In this document: positions 2,696-60,058 of the stretch, one piece after another
Numbering within the stretch: the stretch's first letter is position 1
How the letters are laid out: each line of letters starts with the position of its first letter
DNA from: Magnolia sinica
Taxonomy: Eukaryota > Streptophyta > Magnoliopsida > Magnoliales > Magnoliaceae
DNA: 64,000 nt
NCBI RefSeq assembly: GCF_029962835.1
Contig: NC_080582.1
Location: forward strand, 75,202,177-75,266,176
Direction of reading: 5' to 3'
The notes under the pieces: generated by a model
Seen by the model: the letters and a program-made list of their open reading frames with translations, nothing else
The model's database searches: none
What the model was told of the DNA's origin: nothing
Position numbers and translations under genes: made by a program

Positions 2696-5600
2696 TCACC
2701 AGTAATCTCTACAAGAACATTGGTTATCCTTGAAATGATGAAACCTGTTATTGTCCCTCACAATGATCTCCCTGTGAACGATGCCTGAGATGAACTTGAA
2801 GGCACTATGGCAATCTCCGCACACCCTAAGGTTCTTGGTGATCCTTATTGGGACACCACAAGGGATGGATATCAGTCCAAAGGCCAACGCTAACTTCTCG
2901 CTATGGTAGAACACCTCCGTCTCTTTCTCTTCCTCCTCTAGATCATAGAGGGCGAAATTGGTGTCAGGGATGTACCCAGCCGCCTTCATCTCTCTCCTCA
3001 ATCTTGCCAACATGGCCTGTATCTCGGCATTCCTCATGTGGGTAGTGTCCTTCGCCTGAAAAACGTGGACCATGTTTTTCACGGTGATCCAGCTGCATCC
3101 TGGACCTTTCTTGATCCCCACTTCATTCATCTCCTTCCTTACATCTGTGGCTTCTTCCCACCTAGTGTAATTTCTCAGCATGTAAGTTAACTAAAATATG
3201 ATAATCAAATGTATGACTACCCAATGCCAACTATAAGGAAATAGTATCATAGCCTATATATAAGTTTTGAGTCAGCCCTATCTAAAAGCTAAGCCCTGTT
3301 TGGTAGACGCCTAAAAAATGGCTTCATCTCATTTTAGTTAGAAATGATTATGTATTAGAGATCTTGTGTTTATGTTAACAGGAATTATGTATTGGAGCTC
3401 AAGATCTCTAATACATAATTACTGTTAACTAAAACTAGATCAATTCACTTTTAGGCGTTTGCCAGATGGGGCCTAGGGACACAGGCACAAGCCCAATCAA
3501 CACCCATAGTGTTTGTTTCTGCGGATCTGATCAGGCTTGATTGGCTAACCTTGTCAGGTCATCAGGCACATTTAGGCCCGATCCTGGTACAATGCTTAGA
3601 AAATCTGAAGATAATGAGGTCCCATCACAAAGAAACGCTTGTACTCAGCCCAGGTCTGGCCTAAAATAAGCCCATCCTGAAAATCCATCCAGCTGGTGGG
3701 GCCCATTTGCACCCTTACCATCTTCATACAGAAGAAGCCTTTTGATCCTAGGAGAATGACTGGATACATTCGAACACATGGTGATGGTAATTATCATATA
3801 TTCGATGTGCGTGGAGTCCACCATTATGTGTGAGTTCCATCCAACATGTCCATCAGATTCAGCCGTCAATATTAGGCCTAGATCCCAAGATCTAGCTTGA
3901 TCAATCACTCAAGTGGGTCACACCAAAGGGAACAATGGGAGACTGGAGAGGGTACAGACTACCATAGAAACTTCCATAATTCAGATGGCATGTGATTTCA
4001 TGTATGTATTACCCAACCCGGTCATCAAGTGCATCCTGCTAGGATTAAGGGACACACCTAGACTCAAGACATTCCAAAACTTAGGTGGGTCGCCGCAATT
4101 GACTACATAGGCCGTAGGAATGATTGTACTTGCTCCTTGTGGTGTGTCCCACCTGAATTTTTTGAGAGGGGTGATTCTGGAGATGTACAATTCCCATGAG
4201 GAGTCCCACCAGATGCACAGTTTGGATTCTACATACATCACAGTAGTCCCCACACAGATCAAACGTATGGGTTCAAATGCATATAATCATTCTCCTTGAT
4301 CCTAAAACATTAGGTTAAATCAACCCAGTAACTGCATAATCCAACTGTAATATCTTACCTGCCAGCAGCAGCAAACATGTTCGAAAGCAGGACATGGTTG
4401 CCGGAGTCGTGTGGGTCGAGTTCGAATAACTTCTCAGCTGCAACCTGCCCCAACTCAGGTTTCCCATGTACCCTGCAAGCTCCTAGTAGCGCACCCCAGA
4501 CCGATACTGTTGGCCGTATTGGCATATCCTTTATAAACTTATATGCACGATCAACCATCCCGGCTCGCCCTAGCAAGTCCACCACACATGCATAATGCTC
4601 AGCCCGTGGCTCGATCCCATACTTCCTTTCCATTGACTCAAAAATCTCAATCCCTACCTCAACTGATCCAGAGCGACTACATGCAGACAGCACGCACACC
4701 AATGTCACATAATTAGGCAGCACGGTGCAAGTGCTGCCGCTGCCACCACATATCATCTCCTGGAATGTTGTAAGAGCCAAATCAGCATGCCCATGGTGTG
4801 CATACCCACCAATCATTGCATTCCAAGTGATCAAATTTCTCTCAGGCACTTCATCGAACGCTTTCTCAGAATCTTTGATGCAGCCACATTTACCATACAT
4901 GTCAACAAGTGCACTCCCCACATATAAGTTCCCATCAACACATGCCTTAACAGCGAGCCCATGCACGGACTTCCCAAGCTCCAGCCCGGCAAGCCCAGCA
5001 CAGGCACTGAGAATGCTCGAAAGCATGAAATCCGTTGGTTCAAGACCCTCCTTTCGTGCTCGCAAGAATGTCAATAAAGCTTTCTCATCCTCATCATTCT
5101 GCACATACACAACAACCATTGAGCACCAAGAAACGTCATTGCGCTTCAGAATCCCATCAAACACTGCCGCTGCTGAGTCAACCTGGCGGCACTTCCCATA
5201 GAAATCAACAAGCCCATTTGCAACCGACACATCCGCTTCAGACCCATTACGGATTATGAACCCATGAAGCTGACATCCAAGCCGCAAATTCGATGTGTCC
5301 GAGCACGCATTCAGAAATGCACAGAACGTGATCGAATTCGGCTCACCACTGGAGAGCCGTCGGAAGCTGATAAAAGCGCCAACAGCCACAAAGGGGTGGC
5401 CATCGAGGACAGCATTCGTTATATACGCGTTCCACGTCGCCACATTCCGTTCAGGCATTTCGTCGAACAGCTTCCGTGCGTCCTCCCTCAAGCCAGTTTT
5501 AGAGTACATATCAAAGGCGCTGCAGGCAACAAAGACATCAGATATCTGCCCCGCCTTAACAGCGAGCGCGTGAAGCTGCTTCCCCATTACGGGGAAGCGA

Positions 5601-5965
5601 AGAGCAGCGGAGGCCTTGAAGACGCAAGGGAAGGTGAAGTCGTTGGGTTGTATGGAGGAGAGGCGCATATTAGAGAAGAGCAGGAGTGCCAAGTTGAACC
5701 GGCCATTCTGGACGGAACCGGATATGAGGGCGGTCCAGGAGACGACGGAGGGGTTGGGGTGGAGAGAGAGGAGGGAGAGGGCCGAGGACGGGAGGTCGAG
5801 TTTGGAGTAGAAGTTGATGAGGTGGTTGGAGAGGAACGATGGGAGAGGAGCGTGGAGGGTCTTGACGATTCGGGCGTGGGTGGCTCGGCCGAGTCGGAGG
5901 GAGTGAGTTGAAATGGCTGACTCGATGACGGAGGCGAGGGCGTTGGGAGAGAGGGAGGTGGGCAT
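2696..5965 (-). CDS. MEF11: PLS-class PPR-DYW mitochondrial RNA-editing factor (MEF11/LOI1-like)
   Basis: Two exons, 5965-4359 and 3161-2696, are joined through a GT-AG intron of 1197 bp (donor ag|gtaaga, acceptor ctag|gtggg). The split codon gives AAAGR-WEEATD, and the product is 690 residues. PLS-type PPR motifs run from about residue 40 to 500, followed by E motifs, a PG box at 553-561 (KKGPGCSWI) and a complete DYW deaminase domain. The domain keeps the zinc and catalytic set HSE at 622-624 and CGDC at 650-653, and ends CSCRDYW at 684-690. From memory the whole chain aligns with Arabidopsis MEF11/LOI1 (At4g14850, 684 residues), which edits sites in cox3, nad4 and ccmB transcripts in mitochondria. 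The family binds single-stranded RNA through its PPRs and deaminates C to U. The start at 5965 matches the N-terminus of that protein. The gene looks functional. Its first exon end is copied many times upstream. Confidence 0.93.
3291..3476. mobile_element. MITE inside the MEF11 intron
   Basis: The left end agccctgtttggtagacgcc and the right end ggcgtttgccagatggggcc are imperfect inverted repeats. Inside them a second inverted pair (gtattagagatctt / aagatctctaatac) forms a near-complete hairpin. At about 186 bp, fully palindromic and non-coding, it fits a small MITE. It lies wholly within the intron and leaves both splice sites intact. Confidence 0.7.
3645..4350. other. Remainder of the MEF11 intron
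   Basis: The rest of the intron is non-coding. It contains stretches such as gtggggcccatttgcaccc that resemble ends of the GTGGGCCC-rich transposons seen throughout the window. I recognise no gene. Confidence 0.5.
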
Positions 5966-6039
5966 GATGGGTGGTGGAGAATGTTCATGGCTGGAGATGA
6001 TGATGGTGGTGGTGGTGGGGCATGGACGTGGGTTTGGTT

Positions 6040-6130
6040 ATCGAGGCCCACTGCTCGAGTAACGTGGGACGTGAATTTCCTGCAAACGGTTGTAAGGAGT
6101 CCATGCAACGAAAAGCTCTGTGTGGCCCAC
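6040..6130 (-). promoter_or_regulatory. MEF11 promoter with two site II (TGGGCY) motifs
   Basis: Read on the minus strand, tgggcct lies at 6050-6044 and tgggcc at 6129-6124, that is 79 and 159 bp upstream of the MEF11 start codon. TGGGCY site II elements bind TCP factors and are common in promoters of plant genes for mitochondrial and ribosomal proteins, which suits this gene. No clear TATA box is visible. The same two motifs are carried in the array copies of this region. Confidence 0.5.
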
Positions 6131-6197
6131 CGTCATGTACGGGTCACATCCCCTTCGTCCATCGTCCTGCCGCCTCATGGCATGAGTCAGTTATACG

Positions 6198-6726
6198 AGA
6201 ATGGATTGGCTACTCCCCCTGCCACCAGTGGCTGGTGGTTGGTGATCTGTGGGCTTCACCGATGTATGTGTTTCATCCGTTCCGTTCATCCATTTTTACG
6301 ATCATTTTAGGGCTTGATCCCAAAAATGATAAGGATATAAGTCTCGGTGGACCACACGCAGAAAATAATAGCGAATGGATATCCACCATTAAAACCCTCC
6401 TAAGGCCCACTGTACTGTTTATTTGACATCCAATCTGTTGATTAGGTCATACAGACTCAGATTAAGGGAAAAAAAAAGAAATATCAGCTTGATCCACAAC
6501 TTCTATGGCCTCTAAAAAGTTTTTAATGGTCGACATGCATTCAACACTTCTTTTCTATAATGTGGTTCACCTGAGATCAAGATATACCTTATTTTTGTCT
6601 CATATTATAAAATGATCTAGAAAAATAGATGGACGGCGTAGATGAAACAAATACATCATGGTGGGGTCCACAGAACACCACCACCAGCCATTGGCTGGTG
6701 GCAGGAGGAGTAGCCAATCCGTTTCA
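6198..6726. mobile_element. Mutator-like MITE in the MEF11 promoter (alpha copy 1)
   Basis: About 530 bp with long terminal inverted repeats: ggattggctactccccctgc at the left and its complement ending gtagccaatccg at the right. The left flank is agttatacg (6189-6197). Copy 2 shows that this 9-mer is one half of a target-site duplication, and the right half here was lost in a small deletion. A 9-bp duplication with long TIRs points to the Mutator superfamily. It sits about 232 bp upstream of the MEF11 start codon. Confidence 0.8.
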
Positions 6727-7577
6727 AAGTAAAACAGCCAAGATAACCTCTTGGTACAGCCAAACATACCAAAAGCATATATTCCAATAGAGTTCGAATC
6801 CTCTGTTTCCTAGTTGCAAGAAAAAAAAGATAAAAATGCCCTTGCTTTGGATCCATCAGCATTGGTATGACCTTTTATGCCGGAGAGAAGCTACCTTTTA
6901 TGTTGGAGAGAAGCTACGTCGTATTCATTTGGAGAGAGTGTGGACGGCTCTCCACTTCAAATATCGAGGTCCGACTCGCTTCAACGTTTCGAGCCTGCAC
7001 ACTAACAAGCAAAGGAGACCCTGGTTAAGCCGGGGGACCTTCCGATGCCTAAGTCAGGTCAAGGGAATCTGAGTCTAAGTTGAGGAACCAAGGGAGAGTG
7101 TAAGATGTTGCGTATCTGTAGCAATGGGGTTTCCCTTGTATTTATGCCTGATCATTGGACGGACTGGGTCCGTCAATCTCGACACAATTTGTTCCATCAA
7201 CGGGATTTTGCGAATCATGGAGGTTTTTATCTCTTGAGTGCCCTGTACGTCTCTCCTTCGAGCTTCGAGGCGGACGATGGACTGTCTTGTTGAATCCTTC
7301 CTCAACAGGGGTTCTGCTTGAGTCATTCAAGTCAGACGTCAGTGGGACAGTCTGATAGGATTCTAATCCGACTGTCAGTCTTGGATCGGGAGAGTAACTG
7401 TGATCAAGTCGAGAAGCTCTCTTCAACTGCACTTGTCATCTCAAACTGTCCTTTTGCATATCCGATCGGATTAAGAGGGTGTCGATCCTCGAAATTGCAA
7501 GGGTTCGGATCTTCCCATAACAAGTGTTATTGTAATTAGTTGTTTTAATCAATTTTAATTGATTCTTATAACATTAG
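6727..7577. repeat. Array unit 1 spacer: gamma and delta modules
   Basis: 6727-6812 is the site next to the MITE. The gamma module runs about 6813-6946. The delta module runs about 6950-7540; it has ggagaccctgg, gggaccttccgatgcctaag and an end at cttcccataaca, which look like the start, leader and end of an LTR. No gene is recognised here; the open frames are short and shared with the other spacers. Confidence 0.65.
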
Positions 7578-7965
7578 TTTGGAGTAGAAGTTGATGAGGT
7601 GGTTGGAGAGGAACGATGGGAGAGGAGCGTGGAGGGTCTTGACGATTCGGGCGTGGGTGGCTCGGCCGAGTCGGAGGGAGTGAGTTGAAATGGCTGACTC
7701 GATGACGGAGGCGAGGGCGTTGGGAGAGAGGGAGGTGGGCATGATGGGTGGTGGAGAATGTTCATGGCTGGAGATGATGATGGTGGTGGTGGTGGGGCAT
7801 GGACGTGGGTTTGGTTATCGAGGCCCACTGCTCGAGTAACGTGGGACGTGAATTTCCTGCAAACGGTTGTAAGGAGTCCATGCAACGAAAAGCTCTGTGT
7901 GGCCCACCGTCATGTACGGGTCACATCCCCTTCACCCATCGTCCTGCCGCCTCATGGCATGAGTC
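7578..7965 (-). pseudogene. MEF11 5' fragment, copy c1
   Basis: Nearly identical to the parent gene from its upstream region through the start codon (7742-7740) and the first 55 codons, and then it stops abruptly at 7578. It carries the two site II motifs and the start codon, so it could be transcribed leftwards, but it encodes only the N-terminus. It shares ttcacccatcg with copy c3, where the parent has ttcgtccatcg, so c1 and c3 form one lineage. Confidence 0.9.
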
Positions 7966-7974
7966 AGTTATACG

Positions 7975-8519: not shown

Positions 8520-9456
8520 CGGGGATTTTGACCAGGATAACCTCTTGGTACAGCCAAACATACCAAAAGCATATATTCCAATAGAGTTCGGATCTCCTGG
8601 AGTAAGAGATTGGCTGACTCCATAAATCTCATTGGTCCGGCTTGATAGACTGCCACGTGACGGTGAGGTCAGTGTTTGACGGTGCTTCGCCAAAAATGTT
8701 GAGGACAAAATCTAGACGACTCCCCGCTTCGACTCGCGAGCTTCGAATCGCTTCAGCCCCTTGAACTTACTCACTCGCAATGAGCAAAGGAGACCCTGGC
8801 TAAGCCGGGGGACCCTCCGATGCCCAAGTCAGGTCAAGGGAATCTGGGTCTAAGTTAGGGAGTAGAGGGAGAGTGCAAGATGTTACGTCCCTTAGCAATG
8901 GGGTCTTCACTGTATTTATACCTGATCATCGGGCGGACTGGGTCCGTTAATCTCGGCACGATTTGCTCAATCAGTGGGATTTTTGGATCGTGGAGATATT
9001 GTACGCAATCCAAGAATCGTGTAGTGTATCGTGCGTATCTGTGGGCGAGGTAATCGGTCATATATGCTTAAGGTAGTTTCTTGTTTTAGTGCTTGAAGCG
9101 TCTGCTTCAGCCTCGGCTCGGGACATTCAGCGAGAGGCCCTAACTAATGTGGACACATGCCTTTACTGTTGGTTTGAGCTGAGAAGCTCTCTTTAACAGT
9201 ATTGTCATCTCAAACTATCCTTTTGCATATCCACTCGGATTAAGAGGAGGTCGATCCTTGGAATTGCAAGGGCTCAGATCTTCCCATAAAAGAAGCCCCC
9301 TACTCTTCGAGTTCAGATACAGGCTCGGAGAGTAAATATGTACAGAAGATTAATTGTTTCCTCTGTCGTGTCCTCCACGCATGCCGTTGTCATCATAGTT
9401 TCAGCATTTAAAGTGTCGCGTCCTCGGGGCTTTCTGTCCACAGGCCGGCCTTCAGT
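8520..9456. repeat. Array unit 2 spacer: beta end, delta and epsilon modules
   Basis: The left tip of the beta fold-back element (about 8585-8695) is followed by a delta LTR-like module (about 8697-9295, with gagaccctggctaagccggg) and an epsilon module (about 9305-9455). The gamma module is missing from this unit. The delta module ends cttcccataaaagaagcccc, a variant also found near 16180. Confidence 0.65.
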
Positions 9457-9777
9457 CGTGGGTGGCTCGGCCGAGTCGGAGGGAGTGAGTTGAAATGGCT
9501 GACTCGATGACGGAGGCGAGGGCGTTGGGAGAAAGGGAGGTGGGCATGATGGGTGGTGGAGAATGTTCATGGCGGGAGATGATGATGGTGGTGGTGGTGG
9601 GGCATGGACGTGGGTTTGGTTATCGAGGCCCACTGCTCGAGTAACGTGGGACGTGAATTTCCTGCAAACGGTTGTAAGGAGTCCATGCAACGAAAAGCTC
9701 TGTGTGGCCCACCGTCATGTACGGGTCACATCCCCTTCGTCCATCGTCCTGCCGCCTCATGGCATGAGTCAGTTATA
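9457..9777 (-). pseudogene. MEF11 5' fragment, copy c2
   Basis: Contains the MEF11 leader, the start codon (9547-9545) and about 30 codons, and joins epsilon sequence at cgtgggtgg. It carries the variants gggagaaagg and catggcggg and a deletion at the MITE border (agttatactcccc), all shared with copies c5 and c5', which defines a second lineage. It is not a functional gene. Confidence 0.88.
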
Positions 9778-10203
9778 CTCCCCCTGCCACCAGCACCGTG
9801 GCTGGTGGTCGGTGATCTGTGGGCTTCACCGATGTATGTGTTTCATCCATTCCGTTCATCCATTTTTACAGATCATTTTAGGGCTTGATCCCAAAAATGA
9901 TAAGGATATAAGTCTCAGTAGGACCACACCACAGGAAAACAATAGCGAATGGATATCCACCATTAAAACCCTCCTAAGGCCCACTGTACTGTTTATTTGA
10001 CATCCAATCTGTTGATTAGGTCATACAGACATAGATGAAGGGAAAAAAACAAAGATCAGCTTGATCTAAAACTTTTATGGCGCCCAAAATTTTTTTATCG
10101 GTCAACATTTAATCAATACTATTTTCTATAATGTGGTCCACTTGAGATTGAGATATATATAATTTTTAGGTTCATACCATATGTTGAGGTCAAAAAATGG
10201 ACG
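9778..10203. mobile_element. Alpha MITE copy 3, internally switched
   Basis: The left half matches the other alpha copies except that the outermost bases are deleted. From about 10030 the sequence shifts to a related subfamily and ends without a right TIR, running into beta sequence at about 10204. The left half and the right part therefore come from different family members. Confidence 0.7.
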
Positions 10204-11235: not shown

Positions 11236-11320
11236 CGGCTCGGCCGAGTCGGAGGGAGTGAGTTGAAATGGCTGACTCGATGACGGAGGCGAGGGCGTTG
11301 GGAGAGAGGGAGGTGGGCAT
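11117..11320 (-). pseudogene. Chimeric open frame: MEF11 N-terminus fused to epsilon repeat
   Basis: An ATG-started 67-codon frame begins at the copied MEF11 start codon (11320). It keeps MPTSLSPNALASV and on to LRLGRA, then switches at about 11236 into repeat-encoded sequence starting VATRPLKVNLRTKT. A similar fusion exists in the next unit (12843-13061, 72 codons). Because the copied promoter is upstream, a short chimeric transcript is possible. A function is not implied; the frame is probably a by-product of the rearrangement. Confidence 0.6.
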
Positions 11321-11552
11321 GATGGGTGGTGGAGAATGTTCATGGCTGGAGATGATGATGGTGGTGGTGGTGGGGCATGGACGTGGGTTTGGTTATCGAG
11401 GCCCACTGCTCGAGTAACGTGGGACGTGAATTTCCTGCAAACGGTTGTAAGGAGTCCATGCAACGAAAAGCTCTGTGTGGCCCACCGTCATGTACGGGTC
11501 ACATCCCCTTCACCCATCGTCCTGCCGCCTCATGGCATGAGTCAGTTATACG
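11236..11552 (-). pseudogene. MEF11 5' fragment, copy c3
   Basis: Holds the leader, the promoter motifs, the start codon (11320-11318) and 28 codons of MEF11. The join to epsilon lies at gcgacggctcgg. Relative to c4 it lacks 15 bp of MEF11 next to that junction, so it looks like a later deletion of a c4-type junction. It shares the ttcacccatcg variant with c1. Confidence 0.88.
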
Positions 11553-12959: not shown

Positions 12960-13275
12960 GACGATTCGGGCGTGGGTGGCTCGGCCGAGTCGGAGGGAGT
13001 GAGTTGAAATGGCTGACTCGATGACGGAGGCGAGGGCGTTGGGAGAAAGGGAGGTGGGCATGATGGGTGGTGGAGAATGTTCATGGCGGGAGATGATGAT
13101 GGTGGTGGTGGTGGGGCATGGACGTGGGTTTGGTTATCGAGGCCCACTGCTCGAGTAACGTGGGACGTGAATTTCCTGCAAACGGTTGTAAGGAGTCCAT
13201 GCAACGAAAAGCTCTGTGTGGCCCACCGTCATGTACGGGTCACATCCCCTTCGTCCATCGTCCTGCCGCCTCATC
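12960..13275 (-). pseudogene. MEF11 5' fragment, copy c4, with chimeric frame 12843-13061
   Basis: Contains the leader, start codon (13061-13059) and 34 codons. The reading frame continues into epsilon sequence to make a 72-codon chimera (after HARIV it reads ATRPLKVNLRTKTSRM). The junction with epsilon has the 4-base overlap gacg present in both partners. It shares gggagaaagg and catggcggg with c2 and c5. Confidence 0.88.
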
Positions 13276-15342: not shown

Positions 15343-16435
15343 AATTCAGATTGGAGAACGAAAATGGAAAGCACCGTCAAACGCTGCCGTCGCTGTTAAG
15401 AAATACAGAAGATATATTTTTTTTAAAAATAATAATAAAAACTGCTTACGTGGCAGTCTGTCAAGCTGGACTAATGAGATTCCTAGAGTCAGCGACTCTT
15501 TGACTCCAGGAAACAGAGGATCCAGACTCATACCAAAAATATTTTTTCTATAACCCTCTAAATGAGAAGTTGCAAGAAAAAAAGATAAAAATGCCCTTGC
15601 TTTGGATCCATCAGCATTGGTATGACCTTTTATGCCGGAGAGAAGCTACCTTTTATGTTGGAGAGAAGCTACGTCGTATTCATTTGGAGAGAGTGATGTG
15701 GATGGGATTTGTCATTGGATCTACTAGAAAGTAGATCTAATCCGTTCATCCTTTGGGAAGACGATAACCTTATGCTGATATGAGTTCTCTGTGGCCCACA
15801 AGACCTGAGATATGAGAATAATGGTTGTTCATTACTAACCATTTTCATGTGATGTGGTCCATATAATCGGACGGAATGTGACTTGACTCTTTTTGTTGAG
15901 TGCCCTGCAGGTCTCTTCTTCGAGCTCCAAGACGGACGATGGACCTGTCTTGCTAAGTCCTCCTTTAACGTGGGATTGTAGTTGAGTCATTCCGGTCAGG
16001 CGTCAGTGGGGTGGTCTGAGCTTGATTATGATCCGACTATCAGCCTCGGATCGGGAGAGTAATTGTAATTGAGCTGAGAAGCTCTCTTTAACAGTATTGT
16101 CATCTCAAACTATCCTTTTGCATATCCACTCGGATTAAGAGGAGGTCGATCCTTGGAATTGCAAGGGCTCAGATCTTCCCATAAAAGAAGCCCCCTACTC
16201 TTCGAGGTCAAATGCGGACTCGGAGAGTAATGATATTTGGAAGATCAACCATTTCCTCTACCACACTCTTCACATGCACCGTTGAAATCATAACCTCCAC
16301 ATCTGAAGCGTCGCATCTTCGGGATTTTTCGCTCACGGACTAGTCTTTAGTGGACACGTGGCGACGGTTAAGATTTTGAATCCTTGTTTACTAATGGTTG
16401 ACTGCCACGTATGCTCTGTGAGGCATTCGGGCGAT
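15343..16435. repeat. Array unit 6 spacer: beta, gamma, delta, epsilon
   Basis: Beta right end at about 15343-15530, gamma at about 15560-15800, a short stretch with gacctgagatatgagaat, delta at about 15840-16200 and a diverged epsilon at about 16208-16370. After epsilon, 16371-16435 carries its native continuation before the MEF11 join. Confidence 0.65.
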
Positions 16436-16710
16436 GGGAGAAAGGGAGGTGGGCATGATGGGTGGTGGAGAATGTTCATGGCGGGAGATGATGATGGTGG
16501 TGGTGGTGGGGCATGGACGTGGGTTTGGTTATCGAGGCCCACTGCTCGAGTAACGTGGGACGTGAATTTCCTGCAAACGGTTGTAAGGAGTCCATGCAAC
16601 GAAAAGCTCTGTGTGGCCCACCGTCATGTACGGGTCACATCCCCTTCGTCCATCGTCCTGCCGCCTCATGGCATGAGTCAGTTATACTCCCCCTGCCACC
16701 AGCACCGTGG
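16436..16710 (-). pseudogene. MEF11 5' fragment, copy c5 (left arm of inverted repeat)
   Basis: Keeps only seven codons (start codon 16456-16454) plus the full MEF11 leader and promoter region, then the truncated alpha left end. It is the exact reverse complement of 16801-17075, so the two form a hairpin with a 90-bp spacer. Confidence 0.92.
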
Positions 16711-16800
16711 CTGGTGGTCGGTGATCTGTGGGCTTCACCGATGTATGTGTTTCATCCATTCCGTTCATCCATTTTTACAGATCATTTTAGGGCTTTATCC
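16687..16800. mobile_element. Alpha MITE copy 7, left TIR fragment
   Basis: The outer border is deleted in the same way as in copy 3. It runs to agggctttatcc and there meets the inverted copy. Positions 16711-16800 form the spacer of the inverted repeat. Confidence 0.75.
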
Positions 16801-17301
16801 CCACGGTGCTGGTGGCAGGGGGAGTATAACTGACTCATGCCATGAGGCGGCAGGACGATGGACGAAGGGGATGTGACCCGTACATGACGGTGGGCCACAC
16901 AGAGCTTTTCGTTGCATGGACTCCTTACAACCGTTTGCAGGAAATTCACGTCCCACGTTACTCGAGCAGTGGGCCTCGATAACCAAACCCACGTCCATGC
17001 CCCACCACCACCACCATCATCATCTCCCGCCATGAACATTCTCCACCACCCATCATGCCCACCTCCCTTTCTCCCAACGCCCTCGCCTCCGTCATCGAGT
17101 CAGCCATTTCAACTCACTCCCTCCGACTCGGCCGAGCCACCCACGCCCGAATCGTCAAGACCCTCCACGCTCCTCTCCCATCCTTCCTCTCCAACCACCT
17201 CATCAACTTCTACTCCAAACTCGACCTCCCGTCCTCGGCCCTCTCCCTCCTCTCTCTCCACCCCAACCCCTCCGTCGTCTCCTGGACCGCCCTCATATCG
17301 C
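16801..17301 (+). pseudogene. Inverted MEF11 5' fragment, copy c5', longest copy
   Basis: The leader and 82 codons of MEF11 lie in plus orientation with the start codon at 17055-17057. The frame matches the parent through VVSWTALIS, leaves it at 17301 and stops after ten foreign codons. It contains more coding sequence than any other copy, so it cannot be a simple flip of c5, yet its first 275 bp match c5 without a difference that I could find. It ends where the non-coding element at 17302 begins. Confidence 0.92.
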
Positions 17302-18031
17302 GGTCCTCTCGATCGAATTTCGGCAACCCTTGACCCGTATCCGACGTTTGCACACGATCCTAAGCTGGGTCCCGCATATTAGAGTTGACTCAACTCGAAA
17401 CTTGTACCCTAGCGACCGCGCTGTTGCCGCGGTTCCAACGCTGTGACTCGCACATCGATCCGATACCCAAGCTAGAAGATGTAGGCCCGCATTTATTTCG
17501 AGAAAAATGCCGTGCGTTGCGAATCTCGAGAAAATCTCTACAACGTGTTCCATCAATCAATCAATCAACCAAGTCAAGTATACTCCATACTTAAAGTACC
17601 AACACCCATTCCTCTTCCTCCACAAAGTCAACTCTCTCTCCCCTACCCATCCCTCTTTTACAAAAGTTTCAAACAAGACCTTACCTCCCTATTGCCTTCC
17701 TTACAACACCCATCCATATCATCCCATCACCTCTCTCTCTCTCATTTCTATCTTTACTCTCCAATTCCATGAGAGCTCCAATATCTAAGCTCTCTTCCAA
17801 ATACTAAGTGTGGCCCACCTTCTCATCTCCCATCTCAACCTTCCAATCACCATCAACCTCCATCAAAAGTAAAGGCAAGGAGCATAAGAGTCCAAGGAGC
17901 TAAAGAAAGAGGCCGATAGGTGGGTGTTCTACCGTCGAGTTGCATTTGAGGGTCCACTTGTAGGTGGGACCCATTATGATGTATATGTTGTAATCATGAG
18001 GGACCCATAGTGGCGGGGTCCCTCCATCACC

Positions 18032-18032
<1 letters not shown>

Positions 18033-18070
<38 letters not shown>
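18033..18070. repeat. CT microsatellite
   Basis: An uninterrupted run of about 18 CT dinucleotides inside element A. Confidence 0.95.
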
Positions 18071-18073
<3 letters not shown>

Positions 18074-18190
18074 ATCCGTTTTGATGAAGTGGGCCCCACC
18101 AATTTGTGTTTCATTTGCACCATCCATCATGAATGGTGGGACTCCACCATGAAGTGCACCTATATCCGGGCTATCCAGGGTCTGGATATA

Positions 18191-18325
18191 CCCATATCCA
18201 TAGCTCAACTGGTAGACTGAGTGGAGATACCTCGTTTCAACACTTGGGGTCTTGGTATCGATCCCTAATGGGGGTGGCTAACATGAAGTACGTGTACTGA
18301 CGTGGGTGTATACTAACAAGCTAAC
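18191..18325 (+). mobile_element. tRNA-derived SINE
   Basis: Contains an RNA polymerase III box A-like tagctcaactggtagac and a box B-like ggtatcgatccc about 50 bp later, then ggggtggctaacatgaag and an end at tactaacaagctaac. The same sequence, about 80% alike, lies in minus orientation at 46476-46630, where target duplications prove insertion. Length and promoter layout fit a plant SINE. No clear duplication is visible here. Confidence 0.75.
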
Positions 18326-19479
18326 CTGGTGGGTCCCACACATGTGGACCCACCTCATGTGTACATTGAATCTGAACCGTCCATCAGTTTGACGTCCAGC
18401 AGCATGTAGATGCTGGACCGTCAGCTAGATCTGTGGGCCCCACCACATGATGTATGTGTTGCATCACAACCATCCAAATATGTGGGACCCACCATCAGCC
18501 GTCCATCCAGGCGCTGATAACGCTGGCACTTCACTCCCTCTCACACACACGTGTGTGTGTATATATATATATATTATATTATATTATATTTCAGTATATA
18601 GCATATAATATACTAATATTATATTATTAATATATGTAATATGGTGGGCCACTTCCACATGGGACCCACCTTTAATAGGTAAATCAGCACCGTCCAGATT
18701 TTCTGGGCAGCCTTCTGCCGTTTTATTTTATTTATGTAAATATAATATATAATATTGTATAATATATTATATTATATTTAAATAAATGTTATGGTGGGCC
18801 ACACTCACGTGGACCCACCTGATGATCGGATTGGATGGCGTACCTCACACAGCGCTGCTGCTGTGAAGTTGATGTCAGCAAGTTCTGGTGGGATCCACCG
18901 TGATTGTATGTGTTTCATCTGGACAGTGCCACGTACGCCCCACTATGATAGATGTTTTCCATCCAGCCGTCCATCCATCTGTCTCGCTGGCCACTGGCCA
19001 CGCTCGTGGACCCCACCTGCATATATGTGCTTCGTCTGCTTCGCCCGTTTGGACGGTGCCAGGCGCGGCCCCATCATGATGTATGTACTATATGCATGTG
19101 CTGCATCATACCATCCATCAATGGACCCCATGACACCAGCAATTCTATGGGGCCCGCTGGTGTATATGATATATCTAAACCGTCCATCCACTTGGCAGAC
19201 TCGTCTTAAGGCTTAAGACTGAAAATAAGACAGATCTAATATCATGTGGACCACACTACAGAAAACAGTAGGTTTGGACGTCTACCATTGAAACCCTTTG
19301 GGTACAGAAGTTTTGGACCAATATGATACTTGTTTATCCTCTTAATACTTGGTCTTTGTGAACTTATAAATAGACTGGATGGAAATTAAATGCTATGGTA
19401 GGGCCCACTGGAATTTAAAGGTGGAAATCTTTATTACCACTATTATTTGTGGTATGGTCCAAATGATCCTTAAAATATA

Positions 19480-20045: not shown

Positions 20046-22477
20046 ATGTTATGTACACTGGCCCATGAGTGAGGCCTAATGTGAAGCGTATATGCGATGT
20101 AATTGAGGCCCATGATTATGTATATTAGGCCCTTATATGAGACCGTGGGCCCATTATACGATTGGACCTATGAGCGTCATTCCTTGGGAGCAATGTTGGT
20201 TAAAGGTCCACATTGATGGACAATGATGGTTACACATCCACATTGTGACCTTCCCAAAGCCTTGTTAGGCCCATTTTCATTATTCTTTTAGTGGGTTAAC
20301 CCTAATCGGTGGGCCCCATTCGATATTAGACGGATGGTTTCGCGCTATCGGGTTTGATATAACCACGGCCGAGGGCCGATCTTTATTTTATGGTTCGATC
20401 GGCTATTCATATATGGACCCCACCTTGTTTAGCCGATTATCGATGTTGATTATCGCGCCGATTATCGAGGCCGATTCCGATTGTCGAGGCCGATCTCGAT
20501 TATTATTGAGGTCGATTCGATTATTAAGGCCGATTCCGATTGTCGAGGATGGAAATCGAGGCCGATTGTCGAGGACCATTGTGATGTATATGTGGCCCAT
20601 ATTTGAGGCCCATTCGATGAGCATTCGACCTCGGCTTGATGCATTTAAGGCCTATGTAATGTATGTGTCCTATGTGATGAGGGCCATTATGATGCATTTG
20701 AGGGTCAGCGATGAGGCCCATGGTGTTGTATATTAGGCCCTTGTGGGAGGCCATAAGTCCACTATATGTTAGCTCTATGTGGGCCATTCCTTGAGGCAAT
20801 ATTGGTTAAATGTCCACATGTTGAGGCCAATTGTCGATGCCGTTTTCGAAACCGATTATAAGTATGTGACAACAGAAAAAGATCATAATACATGCCATAC
20901 GCATCATCGCATATTTGTTATGAGATGTAGTTGACCATTGCATATTTCATTGGGCAAGTTGTTATGAGACTCCGATAGTGGAGGTTATCTCACATGAGCG
21001 CACGGTATAGGATTGATGCATGACTGGTTGTATAACTCATGTATCTTGCATTGTGTGTTGTGATTATCGTATACCCTAGCGACATCAGTGGCCGTAGCCT
21101 CCACAAGCATGTCGTGGATAACTAGATGGGATACCAAAATGTTTAGTTTGAGCATCCGGGCACTTTGGATGTCCATGGGTGAAAGTCCCTAAACCTGTGG
21201 CCGGAGATGCCCCAATGTCGAGACCAAATGGATACATGAGCGCCTAAGTGCAGAATACCGGGAGGCCTCGTCTCTCACTGTGTTGTGGTTAGTTAGGAGG
21301 GGGTATGGCCTTACCCGCCCGTGGGTAGGGGCCATAGCTAGGCTAAGTTTGACCAGCTCATGAATGGGTCCGCTATTGACATGGGATAGGTATTGGTGGG
21401 TCCGCTATCGGTGAGGTCTCTTCCACTTGCATGGTCGTGCGTCAGTGAGCGGCGATTGCATGTAGAGTATACTAGACCTTGGTGATGATCCCAGAGATGT
21501 ACAATACTGATTTGTAGAGCAGGAATTGCATACTCATTCATTCCTTTATTCACTATCCACTCGGGCTGGTGGTGTGCAACTATTTGTTACATGTACCTTC
21601 GCAATGGCGAGGATTTTGGTTGGGGTTCACGACTAACTTGAGATTAGGAGTTTACCACAATGAGTCTGACTATCCAAATTAGGTATGAGACCGGTTTGGA
21701 TAGAAGTCCCTTATAATAGACCTCATAGCCTGTGATACTACATACTATCATCCTAGCTTCACACTCCAGCTTGGTCATTTTATTCGCATCGCATATTGCA
21801 TTACATCCGCGGCATATGGCATTTTGGATTATTGTGTTTCTGCATTTATATTGTCTACGTATGGCGAACGCTATACGTGAACTCATCGGGAGTTATATAT
21901 TGCATTGCATCATCGACATCTGATATTTAGCTCTTTATGACTCCTTATTTGCATATTTGATCTGTATCGTGTATTCTGATATTGATTGACTCATTTCCGC
22001 TTACTCTGATATCGTATGATTCATGAACTTACCAATATTTTCGATATTGTATGATTACGGCGTTGTATCTATGTGCTTGGTACTTATCTTGTGCACACAT
22101 TTTCACCACCCTCTAAGCTTTTTATAAGCTTATGCACAATAGATGCCCGTAGGTGGCATCAGGTTGCAGCAGCGTTAAGCTTGGAGCATGTAGCGGACCT
22201 CTAGAGCTTTGGTTTTGTCATATGTATTTCCCTTTTAGCACTGTATTCAAATGTTTATATTAGTGGATATGTGATGATGATGTTGCCTTTGTGATTTAGG
22301 TAAACTTGTGGTTATGCTTCCTATGAGATAAATGTACGTTGGAAAATCCTCCTTGTAGGATCCCAAGATCGGAACGTAATGTCGCTGGGAGGCGAGAATG
22401 GAGTACTACGGAGGTTGTTGGCACTGGATTCGGCGATCGAGATTTGTGAATCCGATTTTCGGGTTTGGGGCGTGACA

Positions 22478-22874: not shown

Positions 22875-22925
22875 AGACAAAAACATCGTGTTGGCCGCAA
22901 AATACCAAAAGCATATTTTCAAAAA

Positions 22926-24187
22926 GAGTCCGAATCCTCTGTTTCCGGGAGTCAGAGACTTGCTGACTCCAAGAGTCTCATTAGTCCAGCCTGATAGACT
23001 GCCACATAGCCAGTTTTTATTATTAAAAAAAAAAATCTTTTGTATTTCCTAACGGTGATGGCAATGTTCGACGGTGCTTTCCATTTTCATTATCCAATTT
23101 GAATTTTTTTCAAAAATTTCTTCTCCTGTTAAAATCTTTGGAATCTAATTTGAAATTCCATCCTATTTTATAGATGGATTCGATCAAAGCTACCGCTGGA
23201 AGAAAAAACCTCTTTTTTCTTTTGACTATTGGAGGCCCCTCCTTCCTCAATCTCTCTTGCCCATTTTTATTCATTCAATTCACGACAGGCTGCCTGCCGA
23301 TAGTCGATTTCAGCCCATTGAAGTCTATTTCATCCATTCATCCATCGAAGATTCACCCCATTTCACAGGTATTTATTTATTTTATAGTTATGATATGCTT
23401 TTGAGGTTTGAGTTCGGGGAGGATTATAGGTTACTGACAGTGGTGGAAATGTTACTATTTTGTAGCTAAAGTTAAGGCCAAATTTGAGGTTATTAATTTT
23501 TAATTCCAACTGCTAATTACTTTATAATGGCCAAATAATATGTAAAAATAACATTGGTGGAGATGTAAAAGATGGAATGTAGCATCCTTGAAGTAAAAAA
23601 TGTACCATTTGTAAATCACTAAAACGCATTCAAAATGAGAACCTATTTGGTGCTAGAAAAATGAATTCAACTCATGTTTTTCCGAGAGCTGCTACTATAG
23701 TTGCTCGCTTTGTTGATAATGGTCATGAGCAATAGTAATCTATAATCCTCTCCAAACTCAAACTTCAAAAGCATAATATCATAAATATAAAATAAATAAA
23801 TATTTGTGAAATGGGGTGAATCTTCAATGGACAAATGGATGAAATAGATTTCAATAGGACAAAATCGGCTATCGGCAGACAGCCTGTCGTAAATCGAATG
23901 AAGAAAAATGGGTGAGAGAGATTGAGAGAGATTGAGGAAGGAGGGCCACCAATGTAATCGTCAAAAGAAAAAAAGGGTTTTTTCTTCCAGCAACAACTTT
24001 GATCAAATCCATAAGGAATTTGAAATTAGAATCCACAGACAGGAGAAGAAATCTCTTGTAAAAATCTCTGGAGAATGAAAATGGAAAGCACCGTTAGAAA
24101 GCTCAGACGGAAATTTTATTTATTTTTTAAAATAAAAACTACCTACATGGCAGTCTGTACAAGTGGGCCAATGAGGTTGGATTTCCA
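22926..24187. mobile_element. Beta fold-back transposon with arms of about 450 bp
   Basis: The left end gagtccgaatcctctgtttc begins an arm that recurs in reverse complement at about 23730-24180, for example ctattggaggcccctcc left against ggagggccaccaat right. About 290 bp lies between the arms. An open frame of 76 codons from 23174 lies wholly in the left arm and is not a recognisable protein. Parts of the right arm occur in several array spacers. Long inverted arms without coding sequence fit a fold-back or Mutator-like non-autonomous element. The outermost right end is lost at 24187. Confidence 0.75.
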
Positions 24188-27357: not shown

Positions 27358-29392
27358 AATCGAACCAAGTCTCACGCCCCGGACTCGATGACTATAGGAC
27401 TCATAAGGAACCCGATGGCCGGTTCGGGCATAACAACCTCCGTAGTACCCTATTCTCGGCTCCTGAGGTAGGTTCCGATCCTGGGATCCTACAAGGAGGA
27501 TTTTCATAATAGTATAATCATTTCCAAAACGAGCATACCCAAGACCACAGCAAGTACATCTGAGAATAACAAAGGCACACATCACAAAATCCACTAAAAA
27601 TTTGAACTTTTACATCATCCATAAGGTCCAAAAGGACATACATGAGAATAAAAGGAAAAGAGAGAAATCAGCAACACTGGAATCCTCACTGCTCAACCCT
27701 ACTCCACGCTCTGCTACTACGGCGCCTACCTAGAGTCTCCTACACGCATCAATCGTGCATAAGCTTATAGAAGCTTAGAGGGTGGTGTAAGTGTGTGAAT
27801 AAGAGGGAATCCAAAAATGTAGCCCACCATCATCAAAATAATTTATGAATTTCAGTTTACAACAGTCTACATTGCTAGACTGTATAGCACAAAATCAGGC
27901 TGACCACCCCTCTTGGCCCACCCTTTTAGATAACCAAATGGAGTCGTTTGGGGCTGAAATTTAGCATAATTGTAGGTAGGGTCCACACCTTTAAGAAACA
28001 TATATTACATGGGACCAAACACCCCTCTAAATGCCCAAAAATCTGGCCTCAAGATGACCCAAAAATCTGTCCAGACAGATTTGGACAGCAACATGTTGCT
28101 GTCCAAACCACTCCAAAAGATAATTAAAAGGGAGATAAATCACCATTTCCTTAGGGTGGGGTCCACCTAGATGGGTCACACAACTCTTAGACCCAGGCCC
28201 CTTTCAAGATCATCCATAAAATCAAGCCCAAAGGCTGCCCAAAACATGCCAAAAATATGGGGCAATAAGGTGGGCCTGGACGTCTAATCACTTAAGCCTA
28301 GTTGCATGACACATCAAGTGGGCTACATATACATCAGATTTACTATAAAGACAGGAAAGAAAAGATGGAGAAGAAACACAATCCGGCCATGGGGTAGGGC
28401 CCCGCCACTAATGGGCCCTCCCAAGAATGAATCATACCCATACAACTACATTGATTGTACATGCAACATAAAATCACTACATGCATGATCTATAATTGCT
28501 ATGGATGGTTGGGATGCCATCCCAACATGATCCTTAGGGTCTAGATGACCTTAAGATGGAGTGGATCATTAAATACATCATGATGGGGTCCATGGAGAAT
28601 GGCCCCATCATGGATCATGACATGCATGTAGGATGGGCCAAAGGGCCACATCCATGGGATCAAATGGGATCCCCACCATGGATTGGTGGGTCCCACATGA
28701 TCCATCTAGGAAGAAAAATAAGATCAAAGGGTAGAAAATAAGATCAGAAATTTTAATCACCCACCTTAATGGATCCCACTCCAAAGTTACATCAATCTTC
28801 TCTTCATGCTCCAAGGGACATGTTTCAATGGGTGAGATGGATTGTTGAAGGTTAGATGGGAGGGAATTTGAGGGAGAAGGGGCTGGAGAATAAGGAAACT
28901 GGGGCTGAATTTTTTTGTAAAAGAGAAAGAAAGAGAGAAGAGAGTAGAGAGAAATGAGAGGGAGAGTATAGAAATTTGCTAGAAAAGAGAGAGAGGGAAA
29001 GTAATCATTAATCTCTCTCCTACATAAGAGAAAAATCATCATAGCCTTTGGTGATATAAACTATATTACTAGGCTAGAGTAGGGATGGGTAGTGTGTGGG
29101 TGGTGGGCGGTGTAGGATATGGGGGGTTTAGGTAGTGTATGAGTAGTGTGTGTTGAAATTTGCACAAAGGAGGGTGGCCACCTTGAAAAATGTGCCCTCT
29201 ACACTAGGTGAGCCACATTATCATGCTCAAAGGCTACAAATGAGATGCACACAACTTATGATCCACACATCGGATGGACACACAAGACGCGTCGTTGGAA
29301 CCGCGGTGACGATGCGGTCACAATGGCATAGGTCTCAACTTGATCCGAGTCAGGTCTTCACGACTGGGCTCACGGATGATCGCAAACACTAT
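27358..29392 (-). mobile_element. Non-coding LTR-type element B (same family as A and C)
   Basis: The left end tctcacgccccggac is the complement of the 3' end of element A. It then matches A's 3' region (acctccgtagtaccc, gatcctacaaggagga) and, at its right end near 29300, the ccgcggt-containing 5' landmark. The middle is shortened to about 2 kb. A CT/GA-rich stretch at 28915-29000 corresponds to the leader-like part of A. Fossil, non-coding. Confidence 0.55.
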
Positions 29393-29738
29393 CCAGACTC
29401 ATACCAAAAATATTTTTTCTATAACCCTCTAAATGAGAAGTTGCAAGAAAAAAAGATAAAAATGCCCTTGCTTTGGATCCATCAGCATTGGTATGACCTT
29501 TTATGCCGGAGAGAAGCTACCTTTTATGTTGGAGAGAAGCTACGTCGTATTCATTTGGAGAGAGTGATGTGGATGGGATTTGTCATTGGATCTACTGGAA
29601 AGTAGATCTAATCCGTTCATCCTTTCGGAAGACGATAACCTTATGCTGATATGAGTTCTCTGTGGCCCACAAAACCTGAGATATGAGAATAATGGTTGTT
29701 CATTACTAACCATTTTCATGTGATGTGGTCCATATAAT
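29393..29738. repeat. Array gamma module, displaced
   Basis: Resumes at tccagactcataccaaaaa, just after the position at which beta was cut off near 24187, and carries the complete gamma module and the following gagatatgagaataatgg segment as in 15540-15865. It marks the right-hand limit of recognisable array sequence. Confidence 0.8.
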
Positions 29739-30300
29739 CAGTGAATATGGGTTTGTCTTTGGAGCATGGCCTTTCGTCAAATTCTGACTTCAATAGGCAG
29801 AATGGATTTGAGACATACTCCACGGTGGGCCCCAAAGACGTAGTCTAAAGAACCTTTAGGTAGGGTTGGAGGCCATTTGAGGATCCATTGTTGTTTTTCT
29901 AGGATTGTTTTTCTTCCTTTTCGAACATTTCTTTTAAGGACGCACCACCACCTATTTCGATTACATTTTTCGATGTACGGTCACTGCTGTTTATTTCTTT
30001 AGTGTATGGGCACTATTAATAACTTTTACAAACAAGTGTTGTTTTTGTTCCAACGATCACATTTCTTATATATGGAAGCCACTAATACATGGAAGATATT
30101 TTGAATGAATTTTTCATTTTATTTTTTGTAGAATATCATTTACTTAGAGACGGAATCCACTTTTAGTTATGGATAGAGAGGGATGAGCGTGGTTATTTTT
30201 GTGAAGAGAAGTGATTGTCAAAAGGGATTTGTGGTGGAGAGGGATATTTGTGGTTGTCATGTGGAAGACAATGACGAAGATAGAATCTAAATTTTGTAAT
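29739..30300. other. Intergenic DNA, nothing recognised
   Basis: AT-rich, no open frame of note and no clear repeat. Confidence 0.5.
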
Positions 30301-34593: not shown

Positions 34594-37500
34594 CGCCTCC
34601 GTAGTACCCCATTCTCGAGTCCTGGCTCAGAGAATTAGATCCTGGGATCCTACAAGGAGGATTTTTTTGTATATACATTTAACTCGTAATAAGCATAACC
34701 ACAAGATTACCCAATTGACAAAGGCAACATCATCATCACATATCCACTAATATAATCATTTGAGTACAATCTTGAAAGGAAAATACATATATCGAAATCA
34801 AAGCTCCAGAATACAACTGCACGCTCCAAGCTCAACGCCGCTGCAACCTAATAACACCTGCACGCATCTATCGTGCATAAGCTTATAGAAAGCTTAGGAG
34901 GTGGTGTAAGTGTGTGCACAAGGTAAGTGCCAAGTATTCAATACAATGTCATTATCATAAAAACTGGAATACTGGTAATCCATAAATCGCATAATATCGG
35001 AATAAGCAAAGATACTATATAAGATCATGAATTATCCGAGTAAGCGAAATACCGACAAGAGCAGAATTATCGAGTAAAGAAATACTCACAAGATCATAGA
35101 TCATACGATAACAGTAAGCGGAAATACGAGCAAGTCCATGAGCCAATCAATATCGGAATACGCAATATAGAACAGCTCTGCAAACGAGGAGTCATAAAGA
35201 GCCAAATATCAAATGCCGAGAATGCAATGGGGTATATAATTCCTTATTTGTTCACAAATACGTCATCCATATCTAGACCATATAAATGCAGAAGCACAGG
35301 AACCCAAGATGTCGTATGTCGCGGATGTAATGCAATATGCGGTGCGAATGGAATGACCATCTGGAGTGTGAAGTCGGGATGGTAGTGCGTAGTATCACGG
35401 CTATGGGGTCTATCACAAGGACTTCTATCCAAACCAGGTCCCATACCTAAATTTGGATAGTCGATTCAATGTGGTAAACTCCCGATCTCAGGTTAGTCGC
35501 GCGCCCCAACCGAAATCCTGGCCATTGCGAAGGCACACGTAACAACTAGTTGCATACCACCAACCCGAGTAGATAGTGAATGAATGAATGCATGAATGAG
35601 TATGCAACTCCCGCTCACTAAATCCACATATCAAGACGGTTCATCTCTGGGATCATCACCGGGTTTAGTACACTCCAAATGGCACCGCCGCTCTCCCACC
35701 CGCAACCCAAGTGAGCATAAGAAACCTCACTATCCGCCTTGCCAATAGTCGCCAATACCTATCCGAGCACGTCGATAGCGGACCCATTCACGAGCTGGTC
35801 AAACTCGGCCTAGTATTGCCCCCTACCCTCGGGCGAGTAAGGCCACACCCTCCCAACCGACCACGACACGGTGGGAGACGCGGCCTCCGGTATTTGGCAC
35901 TCGGGCGCTCATGTATCCACTCGGTCTCGACGTTGGGCGTCTCCGGCCACGGAGGTTTAGGGATTTTCACCCGGGGACATCTATGGCGCCCGTATGCTAG
36001 AACCAAACATTTCCGGTGTCCTATTTGGCCATCCACGATATGCCTGTGGAGGCTACGACCCTGATGTCGCTAGGGCGTATAGTAATCATAATGCGAGATG
36101 CATGAGTCATACAATCCAGTCATGCATCAGTCCTGCACATACCGTGTGCTCATGTGAGATAACCTCCACCTACCAGGGAGTCTCATAACAACATGCTCAA
36201 TGACATATGCAATGATCAACCACCTCTCATAACAAACATGCAGATGATGCATATGGGCATGTATCATGATGTTATCTGCTGTCACATACTCATAATTGGT
36301 ATCCACAACCAGCATCGATAATCGACCTCGACCATGTGGACACTTAACCAACATTGCCCCCAAGGAATGGCCTACATAGAGTCAAACATATAATGGGCCC
36401 ACGGCCTCACACAAGGGCCTAATATACAACACAATGAGTCTTACTCAAAGGCCACATATACACAACAGGTGGACCCTGCTCATGGGTCTAATACATATCA
36501 CAATGGGCCTTGCCCATGGGCCATGAATACATCACAATGGGCCTTGCCCATGTGCCTCAAATACAGACATGTGGGCCCTACACATGGGTCTTGAATTCAT
36601 TAAATGGACCATGCATCATAGGCTTAATACATATCACAATGGCCCTCAACTACGGGTCACATATACATCATGCAGGTCTCGACAATCGGCCATGGCAATC
36701 GAATTCGATACTCAGAATCGGCCTCGACAATCGGAACCGGCCAATACAATCGACCTCGACAAATCAACACCGATAATCTACATCGATAATTAGCACCAAC
36801 AATCAGCTTCGATAATCAACACCGACGACCGGTCACATAGACAAGACTGGGTCCATAGATGAACATCTGATCAATCATAATATAAAGATCACCCTCGACC
36901 ATGGTTTTATCAAATCTGGTAGCATGGAGCCATCCGTCCATGGTAAATGGGGCCCACTTATTTGGGTTAACCCACTAAGAGAATGATGAGAATGGGCCCG
37001 ATAAGGCCTAAAGAAGGGTCACAATGTGGACATCCAACCATCACTGCCTAGCAATGTGGACATTTAACCAACATTGCTCCCAAGGAGTGGTCCACATAGA
37101 GTCAAACATAAGATGGGCCCAAATATCCAACAAGTGGGCCTCAAATAGTCATCACAGTGGGCCTTACACATACAACACGTGGACCTACACATCACGGTGG
37201 GTCGATACATTGGGCCGCACGCCACACCAATGGGCCTCAATTCAACAAGTGGGCCGCATCAATGAGCCGAAATACATCTCAATGGGCCTCATCACAAGAG
37301 TAAGAATATTTCACAATGGCCTCACTAAATGGGTCGGAAACACATCTCAATGGGCCACGACGTATGGGCCGAGTATATATCACAATGGGCCACGACCCAT
37401 GGCCGCAACCCGTGGGCCGCACATACAAGTGGGCCACCTAATGGGGCCCATATATCAACCTCGGGTGGGCCCTGCGCATGGGCGGCAACGACATAATATG

Positions 37501-55420: not shown

Positions 55421-55880
55421 TGGTTGATTTTGAGGTGGGTATGACTAAGGTCAAGGTCATTTTGACAATGAGTTGAGATTGGAGGAAAACGAAGAAAAAT
55501 GGGTGGACAATAAAATGGATTGAATTGGCTAGTTGGAGCATATTGTCTACCTAATTTCCTAAATCTTTTATTTGATCACTCAAATTTCTTTCGACTTTAT
55601 ACAGTAAAAACAACATTGCTGCTACACTAAACATCCCTATATTCAACCTCATGCTCTAAGCGATTTGCTAAATACTTAATAAGATGTAATGGATTTACAT
55701 ATAAAGTTGGGTCTAGCCGGGCTGGGTTAGTACGAGTCAGGATAAAATGACTTGAGCACAAGCCCGGCTCAAAATTGAAGGACCATGCATGCTCGGCCCG
55801 GACCGGCCCACAGCCCGGCCTATTGCCATCCTTCATATAATCCCTTGTCCGAGCTGCCTTCAAAACCCATAACAAAGAAA

Positions 55881-58980: not shown

Positions 58981-60058
58981 ATTCAACTATTCATAGAAGA
59001 GTCTTCACAAGTTCATGTTTTTTTCTTAAAAAAGAAAAAAAGAAAAAGAAAAAGAAAGAAACCCTAAAATAAGATTGACCATTCTTACAAATATTTAAAA
59101 TACTTTTCAATTCCATCAATGCGGTGCGAGTTGAGAGATCAAGAGAGGAGGGCTCAAGCTCTAGTGGCTTCTGTTCTTCAGAATATTTAATTCCTGCCAT
59201 CGATCAACCCATTAATTGGCCACCCACATCATCATCCAATTCACTGGTATGTTCCTCCTTTTGATCTATTAGCAAATCCTGTGCGTTCATTGGTTCTTGA
59301 AGTTCATTTTCTGAAGGCTTTCCTGATCTCCTCCAGCATGGGTTTCATTATGAACTTTTTTCTGTCCTTAATGAATGTGTAATTGTTCTCCTCATGAGTG
59401 TTGTCTTTCTACTTCTATATGAATATTGGTATCAGGGCCCATAATGAGAAGAAAAAAAAATGAAGTATTGTCTTCTTTTCCCCATCTTACAATTTTCCCT
59501 AACAAGACTAGAGATGTATTGACAGCAGGACTGGACTGTGTATGGTTGATCAATTGCTGGCCCCTTTGCCTTTGTTATGCTTCTCTCCAGAGAGGTGTCG
59601 TTTGCATTGCAGCCATGCATCTACATGTGCCAAGCACAAAGCACCCCATGTGTAAGATATCAAGGGTGTTCATTATATCAAGAAGCTGTTTGTCAAGTCT
59701 GCACTTGTTGTTTGGAATAAGCTGTGCAGGTCACGTCGTCTTGGGCTAGCTGTTCAATTACTCATTTGTCAAGCACTTGTTGTTTGGAATAAGCTATGCA
59801 GGTCATGTCGTCTTGGGCTAGCTGTTCAATTACTCATTTGTCAAGCATTTAAGAACAGGAAATAGAATAACACGTGAAGAGCTAAAGATGGATGGTGACA
59901 CATATAGCATTTATAGTGCATATATACACCGACACATGGCATATGTGAGGCGCTTGAAGATTGACAATGGCACAGTAGTACATGCAGGTTCGTGAACATG
60001 AATAGTGGTACATGAGGCGCTTGAAGATTGACAGTGGCACAGTAGTACATGCAGGTTT
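58981..60058. repeat. Segmental direct repeat, copy 1
   Basis: Starts attcaactattcatagaaga and matches 62942-64000 with a few per cent difference and small indels (the second copy lacks 18 bp around 59607-59624). Inside are a tandem pair of about 77 bp (ttgtcaagcacttgttgttt, near 59690-59850) and a tandem pair of about 67 bp (gaggcgcttgaagattgac, near 59945-60080). A primer-binding-like tggtatcagggcc at 59429 suggests that part derives from an LTR retrotransposon leader. Confidence 0.92.

Follow-up and report, generated by a model that had tools for sequence, protein, structure and literature searches.

A near-identical head-to-head pair of gene-start copies terminating a mosaic tandem array beside a DYW-type PPR gene in Magnolia sinica

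The stretch of Magnolia sinica DNA analysed here (the window, 64 kb in length) carries a DYW-type PPR gene on its minus strand (2699..5965). Exon 1 spans 5965 to about 4360 and the second exon about 3161 to 2699, with splice sites placed by eye. Translation of 5965–4355 on the minus strand gives 536 aa of PPR repeats that run into the E motif and end at a likely GT donor, and the exon at about 3161–2699 supplies the remainder of the E motif and the DYW deaminase domain. The name MEF11 is that of the first-pass annotation and presumably reflects orthology; the present analysis identifies the gene as a DYW-type PPR gene. Its reading frame is open and, with the DYW exon, reads as intact. Genome-wide, it was the only close copy found among the 81 of 1469 candidates that were scored, where the next best-scoring match to the protein was 42% identical and the top identity elsewhere (51%) was partial. 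A second PPR ORF of 394 aa is present at 55785–56969 on the plus strand.

The 5′ end of MEF11 occurs seven times in the window, counting the gene itself, and all seven lie between 5.7 and 17.3 kb. The parent and five truncated copies (U1–U4 and L) have the same orientation; only the last, R, is inverted. The copies end at different codons of the gene. U1 (7576..7973, minus strand) extends to about codon 55, U2 (9451..9801, minus strand) to about codon 30, U3 (11237..11551, minus strand) to about codon 28 and U4 (12960..13274, minus strand) to about codon 34, while L stops at about codon 7–9 and R at about codon 82. Between the copies are a MITE-like block and pieces of arm from a dispersed foldback element. 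The MITE-like block (block B) has inverted ends, occupies 6198..6727 upstream of MEF11 (bounds by eye), and is repeated in whole or in part upstream of the copies. The foldback fragments are exemplified by block C (15400..15529), whose relatives form inverted pairs elsewhere in the genome.

A genome search with one arm of the inverted pair returned at least 39 matches; only the best candidates were scored, and the repeat counts are lower bounds. The seven strong matches are all in the window, and the other 32 listed are partial, at 72–83% identity. The idea of a lone inverted duplication was dropped when the seven copies were found. A mobile MITE or foldback unit was also rejected as a description of the L/R pair, as the whole unit is not dispersed among the matches listed. 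Between 5880 and 16800 identity among the units is a patchwork ranging from 74 to 100%, in which blocks of 97–100% lie beside blocks of 74–90% between the same units. Repeated recombination or conversion would be expected to leave such a pattern. Other repeats are seen outside the array. A lone 349-bp copy of array block 15520–15868, 99.1% identical to it, is found at 29391–29739, some 12 kb beyond the right end of the array. The regions 20146–22414 and 34596–37121 share a long inverted similarity (75–81%, about 12–17 kb apart), and 59020–59919 and 62979–63860 are direct repeats about 3.95 kb apart, with two matched 300-nt blocks that are 94% and 96% identical.

The two copies at the far end of the array are arranged head-to-head. 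The left arm, L (16429..16710, minus strand, in the orientation of the parent), carries MEF11 codons 1–7 (to about codon 9 with one mismatch), the leader and the proximal upstream region. The paired part of the right arm, R (16801..17082, plus strand), is its inverted copy. The 282-nt arms are identical at 281 positions, the sole mismatch being 16434/17077, and are separated by a 90-nt loop (16711..16800) that is the start of the block B element found upstream of MEF11 and its copies. The first-pass annotation had placed mismatch-free arms at 16436–16710 and 16801–17075, 90 bp apart, and these are indeed identical at 275 of 275 positions, the true extent being slightly greater. It had also stated that the arms span the first seven codons; 16436–16456 matches these exactly, with the complement of the ATG at 16454–16456. 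R continues to about codon 82 (17083..17299, plus strand) in a tail that has no partner in L and would be unpaired in a hairpin. An open frame in R (17055–17333) encodes 92 aa, made up of the first 82 MEF11 residues and 10 foreign ones.

Folded as RNA, the 654-nt pair forms one near-perfect stem at −659.1 kcal/mol, compared with −244.8 ± 5.6 for 20 shuffled versions, and a chance origin of the pair is ruled out because its fold energy is far below that of the shuffles. The pair is a real, well-defined structure of a known kind, and forms part of a larger array. The first-pass annotation made no mention of the five further copies, of the extension of R to about codon 82, of the 17 bp that both arms lack relative to the gene, or of the head-to-head arrangement. 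Compared with Rfam at gathering scores, the window gave no hit, and a known RNA family, microRNA families included, was dropped as a reading; a new family would not be listed there.

The history of the pair is partly recorded in shared differences from the parent. Parent positions 5951 and 5992 are A and G in U2, U4, L and R, but G and T in the parent, U1 and U3. A 17-bp deletion relative to the parent upstream region is common to U2, L and R only, which groups these three; U4 diverges at the same site, yet retains a version of the 17 bp. U2 is the closest copy to L and R, and is identical to R over 345 of 345 positions, while U4 matches R over 315 of 315 and then shows an abrupt drop in identity. 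R and the parent are 99.2% identical over 481 positions. At 17183 R has a G; in the parent and U1, no other copy extending to this position, the base is C (parent strand). The combination seen in R, of a U2-type upstream region and 82 codons, occurs nowhere else in the window, so R was not copied from another stretch of it. Since L and U2 end short of codon 82, none of the present units can have given R by simple copying, a point that weighs against the reading favoured below.

These features bear on whether the pair could have arisen during assembly, from a read folded back on itself, from two haplotypes wrongly joined, or from copies being equalised in polishing. The published assembly drew on noisy nanopore reads, merged two drafts and was polished with short reads, at a heterozygosity of about 1.21% (PMC10999834), and short reads are not uniquely placeable in these copies. 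An artefact is nevertheless very unlikely. R has its own base at 17183 and a combination unseen elsewhere in the window, the outer junctions of L and R differ, and two sequence groups persist among the copies, so polishing did not wholly equalise them.

The rearrangement that gave the pair, at the array's far end, is probably young. The identity of the arms bounds its age only loosely, as conversion or polishing could reset it. CpG observed/expected is 0.75 in the arms against 0.64 for the window, a value that gives no sign of long methylation and so tells against siRNA production from the pair, though youth would explain it equally well. At the join between loop and R there are about 2 bp of common sequence, which, judged by eye, adjoin a small palindrome in the transposon end at the inner edge of the arm.

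To see how frequent such structures are, sequences were searched against themselves by BLAST, keeping inverted pairs with arms of 60 nt or more, loops shorter than 1 kb and E-values no higher than 1e-10. The window contains two by this search, the L/R pair and an 83% pair at 23174/24012. The latter belongs to a relative (22914–24012) of a 954-bp foldback element (L025), with arms at 23174–23435 and 23734–24012 that are 83% identical. A separate repeat search adds a 77% inverted pair inside a (TA)n run at 50 kb. The same BLAST self-search found none in five random 10-kb regions, nor in the one region taken at the right end of the window. The single control region picked for its transposon ends (L027) did have one, at L027 2884–6371 on contig C13, with a 1664-bp repeat at 94% identity and a loop of 168 nt. 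Foldback elements of this genome thus do contain long inverted pairs with short loops; as a control, the regions are too few for a rate.

The regions of MEF11 represented in the arms determine what an RNA from the pair could match. The parent leader and upstream sequence corresponding to the arms lies at 5938..6235 (minus strand), and 204 of the 262 arm 21-mers are found exactly in 4358–6330. A TATA-like motif, recognised by the plant TATA consensus, is present at 6195–6191 on the minus strand, about 225–230 bp upstream of the MEF11 ATG. If this motif is used, the mRNA would include approximately four fifths of the length of each arm. The first-pass annotation had favoured transcriptional silencing on the ground that the arms are mostly promoter; with this motif in use the premise fails, and mRNA cleavage would be at least as likely.

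Transcription through the pair is harder to account for. The MEF11 upstream regions in both arms face outward, so RNA initiated within them is expected to be sense and to leave the loop untranscribed. A hairpin RNA would thus need transcription from outside, because the arm upstream regions point away from the loop. The first-pass annotation had supposed that read-through would supply dsRNA, but no flanking gene that could drive the pair was found in the ORFs scanned, either among 9 of the 10 ATG-initiated ORFs in the window that reach 150 aa or among 20 of the 48 stop-to-stop frames (90 aa and longer) that lie within 6.3–16.4 and 16.9–33.8 kb. Apart from MEF11, the scanned ORFs yielded copia remains (clear from 33.9 kb and weak at 33.5 kb) and the PPR ORF at 55.8 kb. 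The scan could miss genes with short exons or those in the unscanned ORFs. A bacterial promoter and terminator scan of 15800–18400 was set aside as uninformative for a plant.

Several inverted gene duplications with known effects provide a comparison. In Arabidopsis Cvi-0, the VIM4-VIM2 pair is described as head-to-head with a 50-bp unpaired middle, produces siRNAs from its stem and lowers VIM1 in trans (PMC13213937). The Magnolia pair resembles it in having a near-perfect head-to-head stem that includes gene starts (with a middle of 90 rather than 50 bp) and an intact relative elsewhere as a possible target. It differs in that the arms of the Arabidopsis pair contain whole genes (a repeat of about 6.4 kb), whereas both copies here are truncated; chimeric transcripts and siRNAs are reported for VIM4-VIM2 (PMC13213937). 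Soybean GmIRCHS, to which CHS silencing is attributed, likewise consists of close inverted copies of gene fragments (78-bp spacer) beside a related gene, but that pair is tail-to-tail, 1,087 bp long, and adjoins the promoter of a DnaJ gene (PMC13051633); the Magnolia pair is head-to-head, and no adjoining gene promoter of that kind was found.

Maize Mu killer, named as a parallel in the first-pass annotation, is similar in being a partial inverted duplication that includes an end region and the 5′ part of its target, and the model of read-through from a flanking gene is itself disputed there (PMC3440606). Mu killer originated from a transposon and its transposase gene, while the arms here are from a host PPR gene (PMC3440606). 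A place alongside Mu killer was considered and rejected, as an origin in MuDR (mudrA plus terminal repeat) does not apply to arms that represent the beginning of a PPR gene.

Loci of the VIM4-VIM2, PAI4-PAI1 and GmIRCHS type share two features with the Magnolia pair. Near-perfect inverted gene copies with a short spacer are present, as is an intact homologous gene that siRNAs could match, given its open frame and the exact 21-mers noted above. For a promoter reading through both arms, the comparison is by ORF scan, a method whose reach stops short of plant promoters. Mature MIRNA stems are short and imperfect; the pair, at 282 bp and near perfect, would be at most at the starting stage of such a locus. 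Young MIRNA loci such as MIR161, which has PPR targets, are similar in deriving from inverted duplication of protein-coding sequence, and here too the family is PPR (PMC1790633). A whole-word search of the literature for MEF11 together with the singular 'inverted repeat' found no paper linking them, which is only a weak sign that none exists, most subscription papers lying outside its scope.

In the model that follows from the first-pass annotation, a long hairpin transcript of the pair would yield siRNAs that act in trans and lower MEF11 expression appreciably. A gene-derived hairpin silencing locus is plausible in itself, with precedents that include a head-to-head one (PMC13213937), although three parts of the proposal fail as written. 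The exact 21-mers shared with the parent, the near-perfect stem and the trans effects ascribed to VIM4-VIM2 and GmIRCHS all speak for it. The outward-facing upstream regions and the lack of a flanking gene in the scanned ORFs speak against it. That MEF11 is intact and the only close copy found further argues against strong, lasting silencing. On balance we regard an appreciable trans effect as improbable.

Small-RNA mapping to the arms, put forward earlier as the means of checking, would not discriminate between sources. U2 contains 256 of the 262 arm 21-mers of L and all 262 of those of R, so U2 could be the origin of small RNAs that map to the arms. At the loop/R junction (16800/16801), by contrast, the spanning 21-mers are unique in the window (20 of 20), and this junction is diagnostic for the hairpin. 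The point at which siRNAs stop on MEF11 would tell apart the hairpin, the direct copies and a transcript of R.

The pair may also be an inert by-product of ectopic recombination in a transposon-rich tandem array, an inverted copy from which neither transcripts nor small RNAs arise. The patchwork of identities (74–100%) points to repeated recombination or conversion, foldback-element fragments are found within the array, and no gene is nearby in the ORFs scanned. Long near-perfect stems are, on the other hand, good Dicer substrates. In Arabidopsis about 486 of the 634 inverted repeats that lie no more than 3 kb from a gene give 24-nt siRNAs, according to a review citing Arce 2023 (PMC12595863); the L/R pair, 10.5 kb from the MEF11 start codon, is outside the 3-kb scope of that figure, which counts against applying it here. 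Inertness seems to us unlikely, if only somewhat so.

The reading we favour, tentatively and a little short of an even chance, combines a mosaic array having an inverted end with siRNAs that act mainly on the array itself. The 5′ end of MEF11 and upstream transposon fragments would have been copied several times in the orientation of the gene, producing a tandem array, mosaic in structure and about 11 kb long, and the last copy would then have been joined head-to-head to an inverted one at its far end. This join may reflect a recent fold-back or template switch at the small palindrome in the transposon end; alternatively, the arms may have been evened out later by gene conversion. Tandem direct copies of a promoter can draw RNA-directed methylation. 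Pair and array together would be a source of small RNAs, mainly 24-nt siRNAs methylating the array copies; the near-perfect stem, the share of Arabidopsis inverted repeats that give siRNAs and the VIM4-VIM2 precedent favour this. Any trans effect on MEF11 would be at most partial, because the copied upstream regions point outward and no outside promoter was found.

A bolder possibility, which from the sequence we consider quite improbable, is that array and inverted end together form a newly born silencing locus tuning a single-copy organelle RNA-editing factor, a head-to-head hairpin at the siRNA stage that precedes a microRNA, in a magnoliid tree. If that were true, siRNAs from copied gene starts would dampen the gene that donated them. 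Even if inert, the locus illustrates how naive small-RNA mapping fails, as a direct copy contains the short words of the arms too and the junction alone discriminates. If siRNAs are made, it would add a further head-to-head pair of gene starts like VIM4-VIM2, and, because parent, direct copies and inverted copy lie together within 11 kb, it would let the successive stages between duplication and silencing be followed.
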